DNA from: Cyanobacteria bacterium UBA8156 | GTDB lineage: Bacteria > Cyanobacteriota > Cyanobacteriia > Pseudanabaenales > Pseudanabaenaceae | Reading direction: 5' to 3' | DNA length: 16,081 bases | Assembly: GCA_003456125.1 (NCBI GenBank) | Contig: DMPD01000341.1 | Coordinates: 1-16,081 of the forward strand | Shown here: piece by piece, positions 2,298 through 15,031 of the stretch | Position numbering within the stretch: the first letter of the stretch is position 1 | Layout of the letters: the number at the start of each line of letters is the position of its first letter | Position numbers and translations under genes: made by a program | The notes under the pieces: model-generated | Told to the model about the DNA's origin: nothing | Databases searched by the model: none | The model's input: only the letters and a program-made list of their open reading frames with translations

Positions 2298-2992
2298 TTA
2301 ATTTCGCTCAGTGTAGCGCGCCATGGCCGCCAGCGCGAGATCGGCCAAGTCCGCTGGGGTAAAGGGCAACGGCAACAACCGGGCTTGGGGATAGGGGGCC
2401 AACCGCTGGGCGATCGCCTCCCAGATGCCGCCCCCGCCCAAAAAACAGGGCAACACATTGCTGGGGTCTCCGGCCACCGCCTGTTCCAAGGTCGGGTCTC
2501 CCTGCCAACAGGCCAAGGTCGCCCCCAACCGATTCGCCCAGTCTTGCACCACCGTGGCAACGGCCGGCTGACGGCTGCCGTGTACCAACAACACCGATCG
2601 CCGATCGCCTTGAGGCAATTTTGGCCGCAGGCGATCGACCAAGTCCGGCAGAGCCCCCACATGGGGAAACAAGCATAAATGGCGATACCGACTTTGCACT
2701 TCGCCCACAGCGGCCGGCAAATCGACTTGGACATGGGTGCCCGGCAGCAAAAACAACGGCAGCACCCCGATGCCCGTGCCTTCGGGATAGGCCGCCGCAA
2801 ACGCCATCAGCCGCTCCGACAGAGGGGTGGCCGTCCCCTCCAAAAACCCCCCCCCACCGCCAACTCCGGCCACCGGGCCCGACCGGCAGCAACTGTAGCG
2901 GTCAACACGTCCTGGGCGCGGCGATCGCGGCTGCCGTGCATTACCCAAAACCAAGCGCCAATAGGCGGGGCGGGCGATCGCACCAAGTTCAC
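2298..2992 (-). pseudogene. Sirohydrochlorin chelatase (CbiX/SirB family), frameshifted at a 9-G run
   Basis: The family inserts Fe2+ (siroheme) or Co2+ (cobalamin) into sirohydrochlorin in the cytoplasm. The first frame starts at GTG (2990-2992) and reads VMHGSRDRRAQ (catalytic His near residue 19), then PELAVGGG. At the C run 2847-2855 (G9 on the coding strand) it shifts. The next frame resumes with [30 protein letters not shown] (second active-site His near 87) and a second CbiX-like half with [10 protein letters not shown], ending ARYTERN. Adding one G, or removing two, gives a single product of about 230 residues, normal for the two-domain cyanobacterial form. The GTG overlaps the TGA of the pentapeptide gene (GTGA), which fixes the N-terminal frame and suggests translational coupling. 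The break may be a real mutation, slippage-tolerant expression or a sequencing error; the rest of the gene looks well conserved. Confidence 0.87.
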
Positions 2993-3510
2993 TGTTTAAC
3001 CTCTGGATCGAGCATAGCGGTCTCCCAGTTTTGCGCTTTTTGGAAATCCGCCACCGACAGGGAGTGTGCCCCCCGCAAATCGGCAAAATTCACATCGGCG
3101 TCCCGCCAGTTTACCCCCTGTACATCGGCCCCCCGCAAATCGGCACTGTTTAGGTTGGCCCCCTGGAAATTAACCCCCTGCAAATTCGCCCCTTGCAAAT
3201 TGGCAAAGAGCAACTTGCTGGCGCTTAGGTTCCCCTGACGGAGCTCAACGCCGTTAAGCCGAGCCCAACTCAAATTGGAATGGCTGAGGTTGCTGCCCCG
3301 CAAATCCGCCTGTTGCAAGTTGGCCGTCAACAAAAACGACCAACTCAAGTCCCGGGCCATCAGGTTGGCCCGACTTAGATCGCAGCCCCGACACCGATGG
3401 GTTTGGGTGTAGTAAACCACCGCCCGCAGGTTGGCGGCGGTCGCAGGGACACTCCCTACCAACCAAAACCATCCCAGCCACAATACCGTCACGAAAATTC
3501 GCCAGCCCAT
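2989..3510 (-). CDS. Exported pentapeptide-repeat protein
   Basis: This is a 173-residue protein. It opens with a hydrophobic signal sequence (MGWRIFVTVLWLGWFWLVG), with a plausible signal peptidase I site after ATA (residue 25). A CRGC pair (40-43) follows, just before the repeats. From DLSRANL (44) to about 157 it is a continuous run of A(D/N)LXX-type pentapeptides (ANLQQADL, ANLQGANL, ADLRGADV), which fold into a right-handed four-sided beta helix. A Cys pair next to the first repeats is common in cyanobacterial relatives. The biochemical role of the family is mostly unknown; periplasmic or thylakoid-lumen placement is inferred from the signal. The ATG at 3508-3510 is chosen because it opens the signal peptide. 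The frame stays open upstream to 3648 but would overlap the neighbouring gene. No strong ribosome-binding site is visible. The TGA overlaps the chelatase GTG. Confidence 0.85.
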   Translation of the reverse strand: MGWRIFVTVLWLGWFWLVGSVPATAANLRAVVYYTQTHRCRGCDLSRANLMARDLSWSFLLTANLQQADLRGSNLSHSNLSWARLNGVELRQGNLSASKLLFANLQGANLQGVNFQGANLNSADLRGADVQGVNWRDADVNFADLRGAHSLSVADFQKAQNWETAMLDPEVKQ

Positions 3511-3538
3511 ACCGTTTATGTCGAACGTCCGTGTTTTG

Positions 3539-3568
3539 GGTATAGCACCGAGAGGGTTGCCCAAGCAA
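3539..3568 (-). promoter_or_regulatory. Candidate promoter of the pentapeptide/chelatase/dxr cluster
   Basis: On the minus strand there is TTGCTT (3563-3568), an 18-base spacer and TATACC (3539-3544). The -10 is preceded by TGC, forming an extended -10. It sits about 29 bases before the pentapeptide ATG, within the 67-base gap after the upstream gene. The call rests on motif likeness only. Confidence 0.4.
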
Positions 3569-3577
3569 GGCGATCGC

Positions 3578-5977
3578 CTAGATGCCCAAGCTGCCAAAAC
3601 CGCCGTTGAAGCGGAAATTGGTGGCCAAACCGCCCAATTCCACCGCAAAGGTCAAAAATTGGGTGAATTGGGTGGCGCTGAAGTTGTCGTCGCTGGCGAA
3701 AATTAACGACAACCGACCGTCCGGCAACACCGGCCCGATCGCCATGGCCTCCACATTGTCCAAGCCGGTGGGCAACCGCAACGTGTCGAAGTCCAACAAC
3801 AGCCGTTTTTGGGCCGGCTGAATCCGGGTGCGATCGGCCGTCAGGAGGCTGTCAATGCCCGCAATATCCGTCGCCCCGTCCAACCGCACCTCGTACAGTT
3901 TGATCGAGTTGCCGGTGCCGGGCACTCCCGCCGAAAACGATCGCTCCAAAGCCAACAACAAACTGCCCCCATTATCCAGCGCCAACAACTCCACCAATCC
4001 GCTGGTGTTGAAGGCGGTAGGGGGTACTGGTGCCTGGGCCACCGGCTCCACTTCATACAGAAATTCGGCAATGGGCTGCCCCGTCACCACGTCGTATTTG
4101 AGAATCCGAGACGAACTGCCGTTGCCCACCGTCGCCGCCGGCCCGTCCTGGGCCAAGGCATTCTCGGTAGCCGTCAACAAAAAGCGGCGATCGGGCGTGA
4201 GAGTCAAGCTCTCAAAGGCCAAATTGTTGCGCACTCCCGATCGCAGGGTATCGCCGGCATCGAGCCGCCCGCTGTTGTTGGTATCTTCTACCACCGGCGT
4301 AAATTTGCGGGGCACCGGCAAACGGCGAATTTCGCGCCCGGTTTCCAAGTTGTACTCGGCGATAAACGGCGGGGTCACCCGACTGGGCACCTCCGGATTG
4401 CTCGACAAAAACACTTCCCCTTCCGAAGACACCCACACCGTATTGGCCGTGGCCATGGCGATGCCCTCAAAATCAATACTGTTGAGGGGGTAGGTGGCCC
4501 CTTGGCCGTCCCGCAGCGTCGTCACACCGGTGAACCCGATGCTGCCCGGCCCAAAGGTGGTGGCGGAACCCAAATTGGCCACCGTGGTGTAAAACCGCGC
4601 CGGCGCAAACTGCGAGCGATCGTCCGACAGGGCATAAAAACGATTGCGGGGAGCATCGTACGCCAACCCCGAAAGCCCCCCCAACCGCGACTCAAAAATG
4701 TTGATCCCCGGCGGGAAGGTGTTTTGCCCCAAAAACGTGAGGCGGCGTACCCCAATGTCCGGGTTCCGTACCGCCAAATCCACATCCACAAACACCGCGC
4801 TGTGATCGGAAGTGGGGTTGTTGGCCCCCCCCGGCGGATTCTGGGGCACCGTGGCGGAACCCCGTTCCCCCACCAACCGAAACAGCGGATCGGTGCGCAG
4901 GGGCCAAAACACCCCGGCATTGCGAATGGCGATGTCTCGGGAAGGCAATACGTAATCCGCCCGCAAATTCCCCGGTGCGGTATCCCCAAAATCCGCCGTG
5001 TCAAACGCGGGATTGCCCCGATGGTTGGGGTTGATCCCCCCATCGTCCACCTGTTGTACCCCTCCCGGCGAAGATGGGGCGATCGTGTTGTTCACCCGGG
5101 GGTTGTCCAATAACTGCTGGATCGCGTTGTCGAAGCTGTTGCCATCAAACGGATCGGCGTTTTGATCGCCCATAATCACAAACCGGGCATTGGTGGGCAA
5201 TCCCCCCCGCCGACCGCGATCGTCGTAAATGTAATCCCCCCGCCCCGAAACATAGTCGGCCCAAAACCGGATTTCGTCGTGGTTGCGCTTGCCGTTGCGA
5301 TCTTCGGGGCCGTCAAATACCGGCGGCGTGGGATGGCTGACCAAAACGTGCACCACGCCATCCGGCGTGATCAACGGTACGTCCCAGTGGCTCTTGGAAG
5401 ACAACCGCAAAATGTTTTGCTCGGCCGGCGTGTAAAAGTTCCGCAGGTTGTTGGCTCCGGCCGTGGGGTCATTGGTCAGCAAATTGCCCGGCATGTCCTT
5501 CCACAAAAACGTTTGGAAGGTGCGCACATTGACGGTGTCGATGGGGAACTTCGACAACAGCAGCATCCCAAAATGTCCCGGAAAATTGCCGAAGCCCAGG
5601 GCATCATCGCCGTAACCGGGGGTACCCGGAATCACGACGGTTTGCCCGTTGTTGTTCAAATCAAAGCCGGAAGCAATGCCGGTGTTGGAGGGAGCGGCAT
5701 ACACAAATGGGTAATCGACCGTCCCTGCCCCGTTTTGCGACACGTTCAAATAGTTGCGGCGGAAGTTGAGGGAAGGAACATTGGTCGGCAAAAAGGCGGC
5801 ATCTAATTCCGCAGCTTCAAAGTCAAATTCGTTGATCAGCAAAACATCGGGGTCTAAGCGCTGAATCACTTCGGCCACGGCGGCAATCTGGGCATGGCTG
5901 CGGGTAGCCATGTCGGCCTGCATCTGACCCGCCGTATTGCGATTCAAAGAAGCGTTGAACTGAGCAAAGCGCACCAT
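3578..5977 (-). CDS. Endonuclease/exonuclease/phosphatase domain fused to phytase-like esterase domain
   Basis: This is a 799-residue fusion. Residues 1-405 form an endonuclease/exonuclease/phosphatase fold with the metal and catalytic set in order: FNASLN (N8), LLINEFD (E50), VSHPTPP (H215), MGDQNADP (D271, N273) and TSDHSAVF (D391, H392). Residues about 415-799 resemble the 'esterase-like activity of phytase' propeller: LSGLAYD, FYALSDDR, SIDFEGIAM, SSEGEV and FESLTLTPDRRFLL. Together they suggest a phosphodiesterase/nuclease that frees phosphate from nucleic acids or organic phosphates. It resembles the NucH-type nuclease of Synechocystis (from memory, unchecked). The ATG is backed by GGGAG eight bases upstream. 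No Sec signal peptide is visible and no RTX repeats are seen, so any export would have to use another route. Three 11-base-spaced repeats upstream suggest phosphate control. Domain assignment is confident; substrate is inferred. Confidence 0.87.
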   Translation of the reverse strand: MVRFAQFNASLNRNTAGQMQADMATRSHAQIAAVAEVIQRLDPDVLLINEFDFEAAELDAAFLPTNVPSLNFRRNYLNVSQNGAGTVDYPFVYAAPSNTGIASGFDLNNNGQTVVIPGTPGYGDDALGFGNFPGHFGMLLLSKFPIDTVNVRTFQTFLWKDMPGNLLTNDPTAGANNLRNFYTPAEQNILRLSSKSHWDVPLITPDGVVHVLVSHPTPPVFDGPEDRNGKRNHDEIRFWADYVSGRGDYIYDDRGRRGGLPTNARFVIMGDQNADPFDGNSFDNAIQQLLDNPRVNNTIAPSSPGGVQQVDDGGINPNHRGNPAFDTADFGDTAPGNLRADYVLPSRDIAIRNAGVFWPLRTDPLFRLVGERGSATVPQNPPGGANNPTSDHSAVFVDVDLAVRNPDIGVRRLTFLGQNTFPPGINIFESRLGGLSGLAYDAPRNRFYALSDDRSQFAPARFYTTVANLGSATTFGPGSIGFTGVTTLRDGQGATYPLNSIDFEGIAMATANTVWVSSEGEVFLSSNPEVPSRVTPPFIAEYNLETGREIRRLPVPRKFTPVVEDTNNSGRLDAGDTLRSGVRNNLAFESLTLTPDRRFLLTATENALAQDGPAATVGNGSSSRILKYDVVTGQPIAEFLYEVEPVAQAPVPPTAFNTSGLVELLALDNGGSLLLALERSFSAGVPGTGNSIKLYEVRLDGATDIAGIDSLLTADRTRIQPAQKRLLLDFDTLRLPTGLDNVEAMAIGPVLPDGRLSLIFASDDNFSATQFTQFLTFAVELGGLATNFRFNGGFGSLGI

Positions 5978-6006
5978 CTGAAAGGCTCCCTGAAACCGGT
6001 TCCTTC

Positions 6007-6012
6007 AGCCTA
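6007..6012 (-). promoter_or_regulatory. Candidate -10 element of the EEP-phytase gene
   Basis: TAGGCT on the minus strand lies 20 bases downstream of the last Pho-like repeat and about 30 bases before the start codon. It fits a TANNNT -10 with no conventional -35, as expected for activator-dependent promoters. Weak evidence. Confidence 0.25.
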
Positions 6013-6032
6013 CGCCTCCAGGCGATCGCCTG

Positions 6033-6062
6033 CTGTTAACAATTGATTAACAACCGATTAAG
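6033..6062 (-). promoter_or_regulatory. Putative Pho box: three TTAA-centred repeats at 11-base spacing
   Basis: Read on the minus strand, CTTAATCG (6055-6062), GTTAATCA (6044-6051) and GTTAACAG (6033-6040) are separated by exactly 3 bases, giving a perfect 11-base period. The known cyanobacterial SphR/PhoB box is a set of tandem 8-base units of the form PyTTAAPyPy(T/A) with 3-base spacers. The TTAA cores and spacing match. The outer bases are imperfect: two units start with G. The box lies 55 bases upstream of the ATG of a gene whose predicted product would release phosphate, which makes the assignment biologically coherent. Confidence 0.6.
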
Positions 6063-6113: not shown

Positions 6114-6147
6114 GCTATTCAAACAACAACGCTATTCAAACAACAAC
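6114..6147. repeat. Perfect 17-bp tandem duplication at the 3' end of the STAS gene
   Basis: GCTATTCAAACAACAAC occurs at 6114-6130 and again, identically, at 6131-6147. On the minus strand the upstream copy encodes the last residues (LLFE) and the stop codon of the STAS protein. The second copy lies just past the stop. Because 17 is not a multiple of three and the stop is in the first copy, the protein end is unchanged. Confidence 0.9.
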
Positions 6148-6479
6148 TCCAACGAAGGCATCAGCCGTTGCAGGTTTTTGAGGGACTTGCCCTGCCAGGG
6201 AATTTGTCGAGACCCCCGCACGATAATTTGGAGATCCCCCCGTTGGCGCATTTTGATCACAAACTTCGAGAGCATGTTGATGCCCGAACTGTTCAAAAAA
6301 TCAAGGGCTTGGAGGTTAAGACTCAGCTTTTCGTTGCTGCTGTTGGCCGCCGTATCCAACAGGTCGATGATGGGAGCATACTCTTCCGTCCCGTTCAAGC
6401 GCAGGGTGCCATGGAAGGACACCTCGCCACTCTCCGGCGCGTACCCCACCCGATAATCTTCTGCGGCAATCTCGTTCAC
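6132..6479 (-). CDS. STAS-domain regulator (anti-sigma-factor-antagonist type, Slr1659-like)
   Basis: This is a 115-residue single STAS domain. The core LSLNLQALDFLNSSGINMLSK carries the conserved Ser-Ser-Gly (S64, S65, G66) at the position phosphorylated in SpoIIAA/RsbV-type antagonists. A C-terminal IIVRGSRQIPW segment is typical of the cyanobacterial Slr1659-like subgroup. In partner-switching systems the unphosphorylated STAS protein binds the HATPase partner and frees its target. The GTG start (6477-6479) is preceded by a strong AAGGGGAG about five bases away. The HATPase gene lies 114 bases upstream on the same strand, supporting a functional pair. No phosphatase of the RsbU type is visible in this window. 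The identity of the regulated target is unknown. Confidence 0.85.
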   Translation of the reverse strand: MNEIAAEDYRVGYAPESGEVSFHGTLRLNGTEEYAPIIDLLDTAANSSNEKLSLNLQALDFLNSSGINMLSKFVIKMRQRGDLQIIVRGSRQIPWQGKSLKNLQRLMPSLELLFE

Positions 6480-6497
6480 GTTCTCCCCTTCCTCTTC

Positions 6498-6525
6498 TCT
6501 ACACCAACGTTTCTACACCAATGTT
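6498..6525. repeat. 14-bp tandem duplication, one mismatch, upstream of the STAS gene
   Basis: TCTACACCAACGTT (6498-6511) is followed directly by TCTACACCAATGTT (6512-6525). It lies 19 to 46 bases before the STAS start codon, in its leader, and could alter spacing between promoter and ribosome-binding site. Confidence 0.85.
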
Positions 6526-6573
6526 TGCTCTGGATTTCATCCTCGAAAGCAGACCTAGCCCCATCCCGTATTG

Positions 6574-6596
6574 TAGGGGCAACCCGATTCCCCCTA
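6574..6596. repeat. Hairpin spanning the HATPase stop codon
   Basis: TAGGGG (6574-6579) and CCCCTA (6591-6596) form a perfect 6-bp stem with an 11-base loop. The second arm contains the stop codon of the HATPase gene. GCCCC at 6558-6562 could pair instead with GGGGC at 6576-6580. There is no T run, so it is not a clear intrinsic terminator. It could damp read-through into the STAS gene or be part of a dispersed repeat. Confidence 0.4.
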
Positions 6597-7163
6597 AACG
6601 GCAATCTGTACCATGGTGGTTACCAAGCTCAGTCCGTCCCTCTCGGTATCCTCAAACTGCCAGCCCAGGGTCGCTCCATAGTTCATGATCATGGTCACAA
6701 AACCCAGCCCCGATTTGCCCGATTCGTCTAACAGGGCCTCCTCATAAAGACTCCCCAAATCTTCGGTTTCGACAATCCGGGCGATCGCCGCACCAAAATC
6801 GCCGCGATCCGCTGTCGAAATGCTGTTGCGCGTCAGGAATACCAACCGATCCTTATGCAACTGAAGCGTTAGTGAAACGGAAAACGTGGGGTCGGATTCG
6901 CCGTACTTCATGGCGTTTTCCAACAATTCGTTGGCAATGTAGCTCACGGCATCTTTGACTTCGACTTGGTGGGCTTCCCCATTGCCGTCGGCCTCTTCCT
7001 CCGTTGGAAAAAACGTCGCAAAGTAGTCTGCCATAAAGTCCGCGGATAATCCGTTGTTTTTCCACAACTTTTGGATGGGCAACGAACTAGGCGAAAATTC
7101 AATCGTGAGAAACTCGCGACTGGCGGGCAGGTCTACTTCAAAATCTCCAAAGGTCTCCGTCAT
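6594..7163 (-). CDS. HATPase-fold regulator (anti-sigma kinase-like, Slr1658-like)
   Basis: This is a 189-residue protein with a GHKL/HATPase fold. The N-box ANELLENAMKYGE contains N78, E79 and N83 for Mg-ATP contact. The C-terminal glycine-rich ATP lid is ESGKSGLGFVTMI (147-159). Flanking beta strands resemble SpoIIAB/RsbW-type serine kinases, but the protein is longer, with an N-terminal extension of about 65 residues that ends in an acidic stretch (TEEEADGNGE). The cyanobacterial subgroup is the Slr1658-type regulators, usually next to an Slr1659-type STAS gene as here. The expected role is to phosphorylate or sequester the STAS partner. The start ATG is at 7161-7163. Upstream lies a 199-base gap with no clear promoter. 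Family assignment is good; the downstream target is not shown by the sequence. Confidence 0.85.
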   Translation of the reverse strand: MTETFGDFEVDLPASREFLTIEFSPSSLPIQKLWKNNGLSADFMADYFATFFPTEEEADGNGEAHQVEVKDAVSYIANELLENAMKYGESDPTFSVSLTLQLHKDRLVFLTRNSISTADRGDFGAAIARIVETEDLGSLYEEALLDESGKSGLGFVTMIMNYGATLGWQFEDTERDGLSLVTTMVQIAV

Positions 7164-10522: not shown

Positions 10523-12082
10523 TTAACGCACTTCCCGCAGGGAATCCACGCGATCGACAAATTGGCTGAGGAAAATATCCAACCCCCGCCGCTTCCGGGT
10601 CAGGATACTGGTGCTGACGGCCATCCCCGGCTGCAACGGCAATTCGATGCACTCGCCCCGATCCTGTTCGTTTTGGCACGCATTGCCCACTTTCAACGCC
10701 TGGGTATCAAGGCGAATCCGCGCCGGAAAGGCAAAGAATTGACGGCCGGTTTGGGGATCCGGCGGCAAGGCATCGCTGCCAATGGCAATCAACGTGCCGT
10801 TTACGCCACCGTATTGCAATTTTGGGAAAGAGTCGATGTTCACTTCCACGGGTACCCCCTGATCCCCGTTTTCGTTCAGCTTTTTCCGCACAAACCCAAT
10901 GTCGCGATCGGTGATGAACACGCGGGCTTCCAAACTATCCTTGGGCACCAGTTTCATCACGGGATTGGCCGCATTGACCCCGGAAATCACGCCGCCTGCC
11001 GAAACCCGCAAATCGAATACCGTACCGGCAATGGGGGCCCGCACTTCTTGGTATTCCAGCGATTTCTCGGCTTTCTCCAGTTGCCCGCTGATGTCGGTGA
11101 GGCGCTTTTGGTTTTCCGTGATCCGCTGTAAAATCTCGCGCCGGAATTGCGAGATCACGTTTTCTTTGCGCTCTTTGCCTTGGGAAATGGCCGAGACGAT
11201 CCGTTGCTCCTCTTGGCGCAGTTGGTTGATTTCCGACTCTAAACGCACCAATTCCCCTTCCCGCGATAGTTTGTCGGCTTCGGCCGATTGCACTCGCTGC
11301 TCCTGCTGCCGGAATTGCAGCAGGGAGAGGGCCCCCGATTCCGATACGGGCCGCATGTCCTCCAGAATTTTGCGGTTGGTCTCCAAGATGGCTTGGGTGC
11401 GGCCCAAAATGTTGGCATTGGCCAAAATCAATCGCTGGTTGCCCTCGATTTGCTGCCGAATCCGCTCCCCTTGGGATTCCAATTGGGTCACTTCCAAATC
11501 GGCGGCCGATACCCGCGAGCGAAAATCGCTGGCGCTGCTCTCCAAAGAGCGTTGCAGGTTTTGGACAAATTCATCGGACACGTTGTCGCCGCTGATCAGG
11601 GGCACCTGAAAATCCTCGAGGTAGCTTTGGTAAAAGCTGTTTTCGGTTTCCAGGGCCGCCTTGGTTTGCAAGAGAGTGGTGCGATCGGCTTTGGGGCCGG
11701 TGGGGTCGAGGGTTAACAGCAGGTCCCCAGCGGCCACTTTATCGCCGTCTTTGACTTTGAGATCGAGGATTACCCCGGCGGTGGGGGTCTGAATCTCGCG
11801 GACTGGCTCTTTGGTCTCTAACCGACCAACCGCCGGGACGGCTTCATCGATTTTGCTGAAGTAGGCCCAGGCTACGGACCCGGCGGTGATGCCGACAATA
11901 AACCACACGAAAAACCGCGACCAGAAAATGGTGCGTTCGTAAATCACCGGTTGATCGACCGTATCCGGCGACAGTTCCAGACCGCTGTGGCCGGCGGCGA
12001 CGGCAGGGGGCGCGACCGTGACTTTGGCTAGGGCCCCGTTGGTTTCGGGCGATGGGGATGCGGTGTGGGGGGTCTGTGACAT
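10523..12082 (-). CDS. HlyD-family membrane fusion protein of a type I secretion system
   Basis: This is a 519-residue periplasmic adaptor. A Pro/Ala/Thr-rich cytoplasmic tail (1-45) is followed by one membrane helix (about 55-75, FFVWFIVGITAGSVAWAYF). The first half of the lipoyl domain is IQTPTAGVILDLKVKDGDKV (98-116). A long coiled-coil hairpin covers about 130-350, rich in LES, RQQ and EEQR heptads. The second lipoyl half is EVRAPIAGTVFDLRVSAGG, and beta-barrel and membrane-proximal domains follow. Two cysteines lie near the C-terminus (NACQNEQDRGEC). It bridges the inner-membrane ABC exporter to a TolC-type outer-membrane channel, which is not encoded here. It follows the ABC gene by nine bases, with GGAG overlapping that gene's stop region six bases before this ATG, so the two are cotranslated. 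The stop codon lies one base from the convergent acyltransferase stop. Confidence 0.92.
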   Translation of the reverse strand: MSQTPHTASPSPETNGALAKVTVAPPAVAAGHSGLELSPDTVDQPVIYERTIFWSRFFVWFIVGITAGSVAWAYFSKIDEAVPAVGRLETKEPVREIQTPTAGVILDLKVKDGDKVAAGDLLLTLDPTGPKADRTTLLQTKAALETENSFYQSYLEDFQVPLISGDNVSDEFVQNLQRSLESSASDFRSRVSAADLEVTQLESQGERIRQQIEGNQRLILANANILGRTQAILETNRKILEDMRPVSESGALSLLQFRQQEQRVQSAEADKLSREGELVRLESEINQLRQEEQRIVSAISQGKERKENVISQFRREILQRITENQKRLTDISGQLEKAEKSLEYQEVRAPIAGTVFDLRVSAGGVISGVNAANPVMKLVPKDSLEARVFITDRDIGFVRKKLNENGDQGVPVEVNIDSFPKLQYGGVNGTLIAIGSDALPPDPQTGRQFFAFPARIRLDTQALKVGNACQNEQDRGECIELPLQPGMAVSTSILTRKRRGLDIFLSQFVDRVDSLREVR

Positions 12083-12091
12083 GGGTAACTC

Positions 12092-15031
12092 CTACATTTG
12101 CGATTCTTGCTGCATGAACAGGCAGTAGTACCGCCCCTTCAAGGCCATCAATTCGGGGTGGGTGCCCATCTCCACCACCGATCCCTTGTCCATCATCAAA
12201 ATCACGTCGGCCCCTTTGATGGTGTTCAGCCGGTGGGTGATAAAGAAAATGGTGCGATCGTGAAACTCCGCGGCCAAATTTTGACAGACCTGCCGCTCGG
12301 AGTCGTAGTCGAGGGCGCTGGTGGCTTCGTCCAAAATCAAAATCCGCGGCCGCTGCAATACCGTTCGGGCGATCGCAATCCGTTGCCGCTGTCCCCCGGA
12401 CAGTCCAGCCCCCCGTTCCCCCACCACCGTGTTGTAACCCTGGGGCAACGACATGATGAAGTCGTGGGCGGCGGCAATTTTGGCAGCTTCGACGATCTCA
12501 TCGGCACTGGCATCGGGATTGGCCAAGCCAATGTTTTCCTGCACCGTCGAGTTGAACAACAGCGAGTCCTGCAACACGATGCCAATCTGCCGCCGCAGCG
12601 AATACAACTCTACTTTGCCAATGTCGTAGTTGTCGATTTGAATCCGCCCTTGCAAGGGATCGTACAACCGCGAAATGAGTTTGGTGAGGGTGCTCTTGCC
12701 GGAACCGCTCTGCCCCACAATCCCGACAAAGGTACCGGCCGGAAAATCCAAGCTGATGTTCACCAGTTGGAGGGGGCCATCCTTGCCAAACCGGAAGGAT
12801 ACCTCTTCAAATTTCACCGAGCCTTCGATGGCGGGCATGGGGATGTTGGTGCGGTCTTCGGCGGAAATTTCCTGCTCGGCATCCATGATGTCGCTGAGGC
12901 GCTCGATCGACAACCCGATTTCCTGGAAGTTTTGCCAGAGCTGGGCCAACCGCAGCAAGGGGCTGGTGACATAGCTGGAGATAATCCGAAAGGCAATCAA
13001 TTGCCCCAGGGTGAGATCGCCGTTGAGCACGAGGTGAGCCCCCACCCACAACACCAACAAACTCGAAAGGTGATTCAAAAAGGTGCTGGCGGCACTGGCA
13101 AAGCTAGAGGTCATCACGGTCTGAAAACCGGCGTTGACGTAGCGGGCATATTTTTCTTGCCACTGCCACCGGGATTTCAATTCGATGTTTTGGGCTTTGA
13201 CGGTCTGCACCCCCGACAGCACTTCCACCAAATAAGACTGGGTATCGGCATTCCGTTCGGCTTTCCGCCGCAGTTGCCGCCGAATTAGGGGCGAAGCCAC
13301 CAAGGCCAACCCCATGAAAAACGGCACCGTTACCAAAGCCCACAACGTGAGTTGCCAGTTGTAGGCAAACATGATCAGGATATAGACTACGGAAAAGATC
13401 ACATCCATCACCACCGTGAGGGCGGTGCCGGTCATGAAGGAACGGATGTTTTCCAGTTCCCCAATCCGGGTGGAAACTTCCCCCACCCGGCGGCGATCGA
13501 AGTAGTTCAGGGGCAACCGCAACAGGTGATCGATGATCTCAGAACCCAAGCTGAGGTCAATGCGGTTGGTGGTATCCACAAACAGATAGGTTCGCAGCCA
13601 GGTGAGCACCCCTTCCAACAGGGCGATGATTACCAGCAACCATCCCAACACGTCCAGGGTGGCCACGCTTCTCTGAATCAGCACCTTATCAATGATGACT
13701 TGGGTGATGAGAGGCGTGGCCAAACTGAACAGCAGGATGAAGAAGGAAGCCACCAACACCTGTACCAAAATGCCGCTGTGCTTTTGGACGTAGGGGATAA
13801 AGGTATGCAACCCAAATTTTTCGACCCGGCTCACCGGTGGTTTGACGAACAAAGCTTGGATTTGTTCGGGGCAGTTGGCGATGAAGTAGTCCAGCTTCTT
13901 GCGCTGGACACCGGGCCCCTGGGGACTGGCAAAAACCACTTCGTTTTCTTCGATTTTGTACAGCACCGCAAAGCTGTCTTGCCAGGGGATGAGGGCGGTG
14001 CCCTTGAGGCGGGTGAGGGCGGTGGTGGGAATTTGCACCAGTTGTCCGCTCAAGCCAATGGTTTCGACGAGGGCCCCGCACACGGGCATGGAGATGGTGC
14101 CGGTGGCCCGTACCTGCCCTTCCAAAATCCGCTGGATTAAATCCCGTTTGAAGGGCACTTCCATGAATTTGCCCAACATTTGCAGGCAGGCTAGCAACCC
14201 ATCGATGGGGCCGCGCCCCCGGAAAAACGGATACCGTTTGGCGGTGCCGGCAGCGACCTCCTGATCCGTGGTCGGCCGGGTTAGTTCCGGGGCATAGGGA
14301 ATTCCCCCTTCCATCACTTCGGCGGTGACGGATTTGGCTTCGTCCAACATGTCCCGGAAACCCAACAACCGGACTTTGTCGGAGAGGGCTGTGTAGCGAT
14401 CGCGCCCCATGTCCAACCGACTGCCCTGGGCAAAGCCTTCCACTTCGCCGGCGCTGACCAACCACACCAGGTTCGGATCGAGACGCTCTTTGCCAAATTC
14501 CCCTTTGGGTAGGGTCAGAATAATGCCTTCTTCGCTCACACGGGCGGCGGCGGCTTTGGCATCGGTGGCCCCGTCGGCGCGGCGATGCAGTTCCGCTACC
14601 ACCAATTCGTAGGCTTCGCAGTAGGAGGGGCGATCGCCAAAGACGGGTTGCAGGGAGGGCTCCCGCCGCATCAATTCCAAAAAGTCTGCCTGGAGAATGG
14701 TAACGGCAACGGTCTCCTGGGCAGCGGTGGCGGTTTCGCAGGGTACCCCCCGCATCAGGCTCCCCCATCCCAACAATTTGCCCGGGCCCAGTACCCCCAA
14801 ACTCACCGGTATGCCGCCCGCCGTAAATCCCAACAACCGGGCCTGCCCCTCAAAAATGGCGATCGCCCGATCGGGCATGACTTCGCGGCTGAGCATGGCT
14901 TGCCCCATCCGGTACTGAAACAACTGGCACTTGGTCATCAACCAGTCGAAGTTGGCGGCGGATAGGCGATCGAACGGCGGGGTTTGAGCCAGAAACTCCC
15001 GGAGTTGCTGCGCCGAAACGGTCTGTGGCAT
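12092..15031 (-). CDS. Type I secretion ABC exporter with N-terminal cNMP-binding-like and C39-like domains
   Basis: This is a 979-residue inner-membrane exporter. Residues 1-130 resemble a cyclic-nucleotide-binding fold (AIAIFEGQARLLG, LGPGKLLGWGSLMRG), but the usual phosphate-binding Arg is not seen (VPCETATA). A second, weaker copy may lie at 140-240. Residues about 270-395 are a peptidase C39-like domain (GPIDGLLACLQML) lacking the catalytic Cys and His (DSFAVLYK replaces HFVV), so it probably docks cargo rather than cleaving it. The transmembrane domain spans about 405-690. The nucleotide-binding domain has Walker A GQSGSGKST (773-781), signature LSGGQRQR (877-884), Walker B ILILDEATSALD (897-908) and H-loop H933. 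All ATPase motifs are intact. With the adjacent HlyD gene it forms a type I secretion pair like Synechocystis Sll1180/Sll1181 (from memory). No cargo gene is adjacent. Confidence 0.93.
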   Translation of the reverse strand: MPQTVSAQQLREFLAQTPPFDRLSAANFDWLMTKCQLFQYRMGQAMLSREVMPDRAIAIFEGQARLLGFTAGGIPVSLGVLGPGKLLGWGSLMRGVPCETATAAQETVAVTILQADFLELMRREPSLQPVFGDRPSYCEAYELVVAELHRRADGATDAKAAAARVSEEGIILTLPKGEFGKERLDPNLVWLVSAGEVEGFAQGSRLDMGRDRYTALSDKVRLLGFRDMLDEAKSVTAEVMEGGIPYAPELTRPTTDQEVAAGTAKRYPFFRGRGPIDGLLACLQMLGKFMEVPFKRDLIQRILEGQVRATGTISMPVCGALVETIGLSGQLVQIPTTALTRLKGTALIPWQDSFAVLYKIEENEVVFASPQGPGVQRKKLDYFIANCPEQIQALFVKPPVSRVEKFGLHTFIPYVQKHSGILVQVLVASFFILLFSLATPLITQVIIDKVLIQRSVATLDVLGWLLVIIALLEGVLTWLRTYLFVDTTNRIDLSLGSEIIDHLLRLPLNYFDRRRVGEVSTRIGELENIRSFMTGTALTVVMDVIFSVVYILIMFAYNWQLTLWALVTVPFFMGLALVASPLIRRQLRRKAERNADTQSYLVEVLSGVQTVKAQNIELKSRWQWQEKYARYVNAGFQTVMTSSFASAASTFLNHLSSLLVLWVGAHLVLNGDLTLGQLIAFRIISSYVTSPLLRLAQLWQNFQEIGLSIERLSDIMDAEQEISAEDRTNIPMPAIEGSVKFEEVSFRFGKDGPLQLVNISLDFPAGTFVGIVGQSGSGKSTLTKLISRLYDPLQGRIQIDNYDIGKVELYSLRRQIGIVLQDSLLFNSTVQENIGLANPDASADEIVEAAKIAAAHDFIMSLPQGYNTVVGERGAGLSGGQRQRIAIARTVLQRPRILILDEATSALDYDSERQVCQNLAAEFHDRTIFFITHRLNTIKGADVILMMDKGSVVEMGTHPELMALKGRYYCLFMQQESQM

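Follow-up and report, generated by a model that had tools for sequence, protein, structure and literature searches.

We consider it highly probable that positions 6033-6062 of the window (the whole stretch of 16,081 nucleotides analyzed here) form a genuine three-unit SphR-type Pho box in front of a plausible target, the gene for a predicted EEP + phytase-like phosphoesterase (3578..5977, minus strand; 799 amino acids, assigned with Pfam). The cell probably makes this predicted phosphate-releasing enzyme mainly when phosphate is short. This kind of switch is well known, and the EEP + phytase-like gene is likely to be a new target of it.

Read directly along the minus strand from 6062 to 6033, the site is CTTAATCG-GTT-GTTAATCA-ATT-GTTAACAG. 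Unit 1 (CTTAATCG) occupies 6055..6062, unit 2 (GTTAATCA), preceded by the 3-base linker GTT, occupies 6044..6051, and unit 3 (GTTAACAG), preceded by the linker ATT, occupies 6033..6040, all three on the minus strand and recognized from both sequence and matrix; the site thus has the layout of the SphR Pho box, namely three tandem 8-base units with 3-base linkers and a TTAA core. An earlier note on this DNA had described three TTAA units at 11-base spacing on the gene's own strand, 55 bases before its ATG, with a deviating first base in two of the three, and our reading of the sequence confirms both points: the three TTAA cores are spaced at exactly 11 bases, 55 bases separate 6033 from the ATG at 5977, and G replaces the pyrimidine as the first base of units 2 and 3. 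This deviation is mild because G occurs at the first unit position in approximately 13% of the published units in our matrix. None of the three units matches the strict consensus PyTTAAPyPy(T/A) in full, with unit 1 ending in G, unit 3 ending in CAG, and units 2 and 3 starting with G; judged by eye, most boxes in Table 1 of Su et al. 2007 (PMC1906773) likewise depart from it.

The earlier note had proposed that the site be scored with a Pho-box matrix, and we built one from 24 of the 30 triples in the same table (PMC1906773), leaving out three PCC 7942 doubles, the PCC 7120 nucH copy and the doubtful pstC boxes of CCMP1375 and NATL2A. The top matrix site of the window is 6033-6062, which scores 20.7 bits when read along the gene's strand; an overlapping reading on the opposite strand scores 13.6 bits, and the next separate site in the window scores 8.6 bits. 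In a leave-one-out comparison with the 24 reference boxes, the site would rank 14th of 25, which is within the range of known boxes. Its score lies well above background: when the 154-base intergenic region was dinucleotide-shuffled 20,000 times, no shuffle reached that score and none contained the bare triple TTAA-N7-TTAA-N7-TTAA, and when the window was shuffled in full, 3 of 500 trials reached it. The last of these figures speaks to some extent for a chance arrangement of TTAA in a slightly AT-richer gap that binds nothing, an explanation that we regard as improbable. That explanation also draws on counts of the bare triple, which barely outnumbers its backwards control within the genome of the window (5 vs 4) and equals it when summed over 13 family genomes (64 vs 64). 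TTAA cores alone therefore prove nothing, and the bare triple was rejected as evidence since it shows no excess over the control. The published two-unit consensus was also set aside; with up to 3 mismatches it gave 6 matches in the window against 3.1 expected, as many being found in 24 of 200 shuffles, which is nothing beyond chance, and it has no exact match in the window's own genome. The specificity of the predicted site derives instead from its flanking bases, orientation, position and recurrence; chance is opposed here by the matrix score together with the orientation and, as set out below, by similar sites before other phosphoesterase genes and by a spacing peak at 11 over the relatives.

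The genome to which the window belongs is a 2.3-Mb draft of about 78% completeness (G000). A TTAAYY triple with 11-base spacing and at most 2 mismatches gave 7 rows at 6 places in this genome, compared with 3 for the backwards control. Four of the six places precede phosphoesterase genes, namely the EEP gene itself and genes encoding a NucH-family nuclease (contig C284; profile score 496 bits, cut-off 300), PhoX (C98; 360, cut-off 24) and an RTX-GDPD protein (C253; 75, cut-off 23.6), and the latter three sites count against a chance origin of the window's array. Only about 16 bases separate the GDPD box from the first ATG, and the start codon of this gene may therefore be misplaced. The other two places have no phosphate gene: one (C149) is near a topoisomerase-like gene, as judged by eye, and the other, on C200, was not counted as support, being a tandem repeat that adjoins masked sequence. 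Elsewhere in the genome, four TTAA units form an 11-base array at positions 2077-2115 of contig C207 (locus L197), which by eye lies within a long gap upstream of a PspA-like ORF; this array scores 19.9 bits and was not counted either, since it is a tandem repeat of 11 bases for which no clear target gene is evident. The one scorable pstS-like region of the genome (C258, L152) yielded no box (p 0.37), and a positive control over the pstS-family upstream regions of the wider family yielded a box at p 0.005 in 7 of 22.

Comparison of the regions upstream of orthologues, also suggested in the earlier note, was performed on two sets. The first comprised the best 80 of 573 loci encoding a relative, from which L075 and L078 were dropped for want of a start or upstream DNA, leaving 39 of 40 cyanobacterial-labelled and 39 of 40 other-phylum loci; in the second, 11 of 30 loci were scored, including that of the window (L001), after omission of L004, L005 and L008, which share contigs with L050, L047 and L052, and of L015-L030, which are partial or single-domain. 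A box at p<0.01 was found before 14 of the 39 cyanobacterial relatives of the first set with 200 shuffles (Fisher 8e-17, a value that treats related sequences as independent, several upstream regions being alike), before 12 of the same 39 with 500 shuffles, and before 5 of the 10 relatives of the second set when the window was left out. Among control genes from the same loci the figure was 4 of 85, significantly lower than 14 of 39 (exact test, p 1.6e-5), and one of these four genes (L049) is the head of an operon just before the EEP gene; because 12 of the 85 control genes reached p<0.05, the shuffle p-values run somewhat low. The upstream comparison accordingly bears out the earlier note in that boxes are commoner before relatives than before control genes, and fails to do so in that no box at p<0.01 precedes 25 of the 39 cyanobacterial relatives in the first set or 5 of the 10 in the second. 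Over the 39 cyanobacterial relatives, the mean best score was 8.4 at a spacing of 11 and 1.3-3.5 at spacings of 8-10 and 12-15, with 3.3 for the antisense strand at spacing 11, and this peak speaks against chance. The matrix score and the recurrence before related genes above the level of control genes together support the phosphate-starvation (SphR) control that the earlier note had predicted from the sequence.

The form of the array varies among the relatives. In the Nostocales loci L036, L040 and L049, a box resembling TTTAACCT-N3-GCTAG-N3-...-CTTAATCT stands before the first gene of the operon (p 0.03, 0.02 and 0.008, respectively), and a near-identical Nostocales box stands directly before the EEP gene in L039, L042, L043 and L048. 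Two of the operon-first genes were scanned, of which one is a 5'-nucleotidase/DUF4114 gene and the other a NucH-type gene that falls below its cut-off. Two TTAA units are spaced at 23 rather than 22 bases in L003, L006 and L012, and genomes G002 and G009 carry, by eye, arrays with more units than three or two. In Lyngbya aestuarii, a gene for a CRP-family regulator, itself preceded by a 19.6-bit Pho box, lies just before an EEP gene (L087, 3905-4394, plus strand), for which the PhoBR-PtrA cascade described in marine Synechococcus (PMC11098088) offers a comparison. Among the other-phylum relatives, 4 of 39 had a box at p<0.01 (L111, L072, L079 and L098; Fisher 9e-5), an enrichment of its own that shows no peak at spacing 11, and L085 reached p 0.025. 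L085, L098 and L111 come from metagenome bins labelled Chloroflexaceae and Gracilibacteria, and their EEP proteins are closest, within the set, to cyanobacterial ones; cyanobacterial sequences are likewise among the close matches of some loci that are clearly not cyanobacterial, so that misbinning of these contigs is no more than possible.

In the sister species (G001; 90-92% protein identity), the genes around the EEP gene follow the same order, with slr1659-, slr1658- and DUF2854-type genes upstream (ORFs of at least 50 amino acids); the slr1659/slr1658 pair lies at 11374-12462 of locus L207. The gap before the EEP gene is longer, at 418 bases by coordinates compared with 154; its sequence resembles that of the window between the site and the ATG and has diverged above the site. 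The array itself has two units instead of three and gives p 0.43 when scored as a triple, and the smaller number of units favors a chance arrangement of the window's TTAA cores to some degree. The three units of the NucH box are kept in each of the two species, in DNA that has otherwise diverged. The EEP gene of the sister species is present in two overlapping frames (C15, 8558-10955; L002, L207), representing either an assembly error or a broken gene.

Upstream of the EEP gene are slr1659- and slr1658-type regulator genes (6132-7163, minus strand; NF047705 and NF052618, both over their cut-offs), of which the slr1659-superfamily gene (6132-6479, minus strand) directly precedes it. Since both flanking genes are encoded on the minus strand, the EEP gene is the only one that this gap of 154 bases can serve. 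This gap contains a putative -10 element, TAGGCT (6007..6012, minus strand), 23 bases past the last TTAA, and a ribosome-binding-like AGGGAG (5986..5991, minus strand) 8 bases before the ATG, the latter being kept in the sister species. A palindrome that we take to be HIP1-like, GGCGATCGCC (6021-6030), lies between the box and this -10-like element and is likewise shared with the sister species. TAnnnT is found exactly 23 bases past the last TTAA in the EEP and NucH promoters of both the window's own genome and the sister species. The offset is 11 bases for the EEP genes of G013 and G002 (also of G009, by eye) and for the own-genome PhoX gene; TATGGT occurs at 33 in the two pstS-like promoters of G002 and G009, and the GDPD promoter has no TAnnnT within 45 bases. 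A promoter geometry is suggested by these offsets in a suggestive sense only, as the offset was picked after looking and the PhoX, GDPD and pstS-like promoters differ. If the box were real and acted as a repressor site, or controlled another gene, its closeness to the -10 element would have a parallel in Synechocystis, where repression from such a position has been proposed for urtA (PMC13226834); we judge this extremely improbable, since 23 bases separate the last TTAA from the -10-like element and since the slr1659-type gene (ending at 6132) and the EEP gene (starting at 5977) run in the same direction, leaving no divergent gene to control.

In our model of activation, phosphorylated SphR, a PhoB-type regulator, would bind the three 11-base units during phosphate shortage, head to tail and on one face of the helix, and would help RNA polymerase to start at the weak -10 element about 23 bases downstream; the EEP + phytase-like enzyme would then be switched on and would release phosphate from organic phosphates. 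We infer both binding and induction at the site from sequence. The genome encodes a PhoB/SphR-type regulator, the best candidate for SphR being the response regulator on contig C356, which is the best PhoB-family match in this genome. Many of its relatives, at 66-79% identity among the best 120 of 7792, are named "phosphate regulon response regulator PhoB"; no protein in the 13 family genomes searched, that of C356 included, passes the TIGR02154 cut-off for PhoB.

Another OmpR-family regulator with a similar half-site, such as RpaB, might occupy the site instead and confer a response to light or redox rather than to phosphate. The rpaB gene stands upstream of minC/minD, and the HLR1-type repeats of RpaB have a period of 10, TTACA cores and repeats beginning with G. 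Units 2 and 3 of the window's site do start with G, and the genome has 56 PhoB-like matches, receiver-only ones included, one of which is upstream of minC/minD-like ORFs (by eye). We nevertheless find this alternative very improbable: the period of 11 and the TTAA cores agree with published SphR boxes and differ from HLR1 in both period and core, the mean score over the cyanobacterial relatives is 2.1 at spacing 10 compared with 8.4 at spacing 11, and 3 of the other 5 such places in the genome precede phosphate-scavenging genes.

Control by SphR is in keeping with the predicted product, which the earlier note had described as a phosphate-releasing, nuclease/phytase-like enzyme. Two Pfam domains exceed their curated cut-offs, PF03372 (EEP; residues 24-392, 95.8 bits) and PF13449 (phytase-like; residues 431-766, 292.9 bits). 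The protein contains the motifs NEFDF, SHPTPP, GDQNAD and SDH, and N8, E50, H215, D271, N273, D391 and H392, presumably the EEP metal and catalytic residues as known from the family, are invariant in all 10 sequences of an alignment that left out L004 and L010 (internal stops), L008 (a close double) and L002 (split). Among the best 120 of 2442 related proteins, many add a beta-propeller phytase (PF02333) and RTX repeats (PF00353) and a few add PhoD-type or GDPD domains, so that the family looks like a phosphate-scavenging kit. A Pfam scan found no RTX repeat in the window protein, and a search of solved structures with the same protein gave no match. Directly downstream on the same strand is a gene for a pentapeptide-repeat protein (2989-3564, minus strand), possibly in one operon with the EEP gene. 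The window also holds HlyD-type and ABC exporter genes resembling type I secretion (10523-15031, minus strand), with a cNMP-binding domain just under its cut-off; this exporter could be a candidate export route for phosphoesterases.

More broadly, we put forward tentatively, as an idea slightly more doubtful than assured, that the EEP + phytase-like fusion is a widespread and overlooked core SphR target in filamentous cyanobacteria, with an array that varies by whole 11-base units between close species and that stands at the head of the operon where a nuclease or 5'-nucleotidase gene lies in front. If true, this would explain phosphate induction in the absence of a recognized box, as in Nodularia. 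The probable box of the window by itself extends a well-described phosphate regulon to a large and poorly characterized family of phosphoesterases. In Nostocales the motif takes the form of three units with a degenerate middle one, and this form could serve to find boxes where a published search found none; phosphorus scavenging by cyanobacteria is relevant to blooms and mats.

The SphR Pho boxes of Synechocystis PCC 6803, before sphX, pstS2 and phoA-nucH, were reportedly described by Suzuki in 2004, according to citing papers. PhoB of Synechocystis binds less well, or no longer binds, once any one of the three TTAA units is mutated (PMC11126600). Our literature search, which covered few subscription papers and no supplementary gene lists, turned up no report that we recognized of a Pho box before an EEP + phytase-like gene, and the words "phytase" and "endonuclease" are absent from the main text of Su et al. 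2007 (PMC1906773). In Nodularia spumigena CCY9414, nsp7010, annotated as an "atypical alkaline phosphatase (esterase-like activity of phytase family protein)", was strongly induced by phosphate limitation in an RNA-seq study, with log2 changes of 5.53 on day 7 and 3.82 on day 14; its listed neighbors are a metallophosphoesterase and a DUF4114 gene, and according to the authors the search for a conserved P-box was unsuccessful (PMC9846622). Similarly, the EEP gene of Anabaena (L036) follows a gene with 5'-nucleotidase and DUF4114 domains, and nsp7010 may be an ortholog of the window's gene, judging by annotation and neighbors alone. The window's enzyme may also be likened, by description only, to Psip1, a cyanobacterial alkaline phosphatase under phosphate control, which certain species reportedly have in fusion with a phytase-like domain (PMC11098088). 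The site as a whole resembles the SphR boxes of Synechocystis PCC 6803 in its three 8-base TTAA units, its 3-base linkers and its association with phosphate-scavenging genes (PMC1906773), and differs from the SphR targets of that species in that the predicted target here is an EEP + phytase-like fusion.
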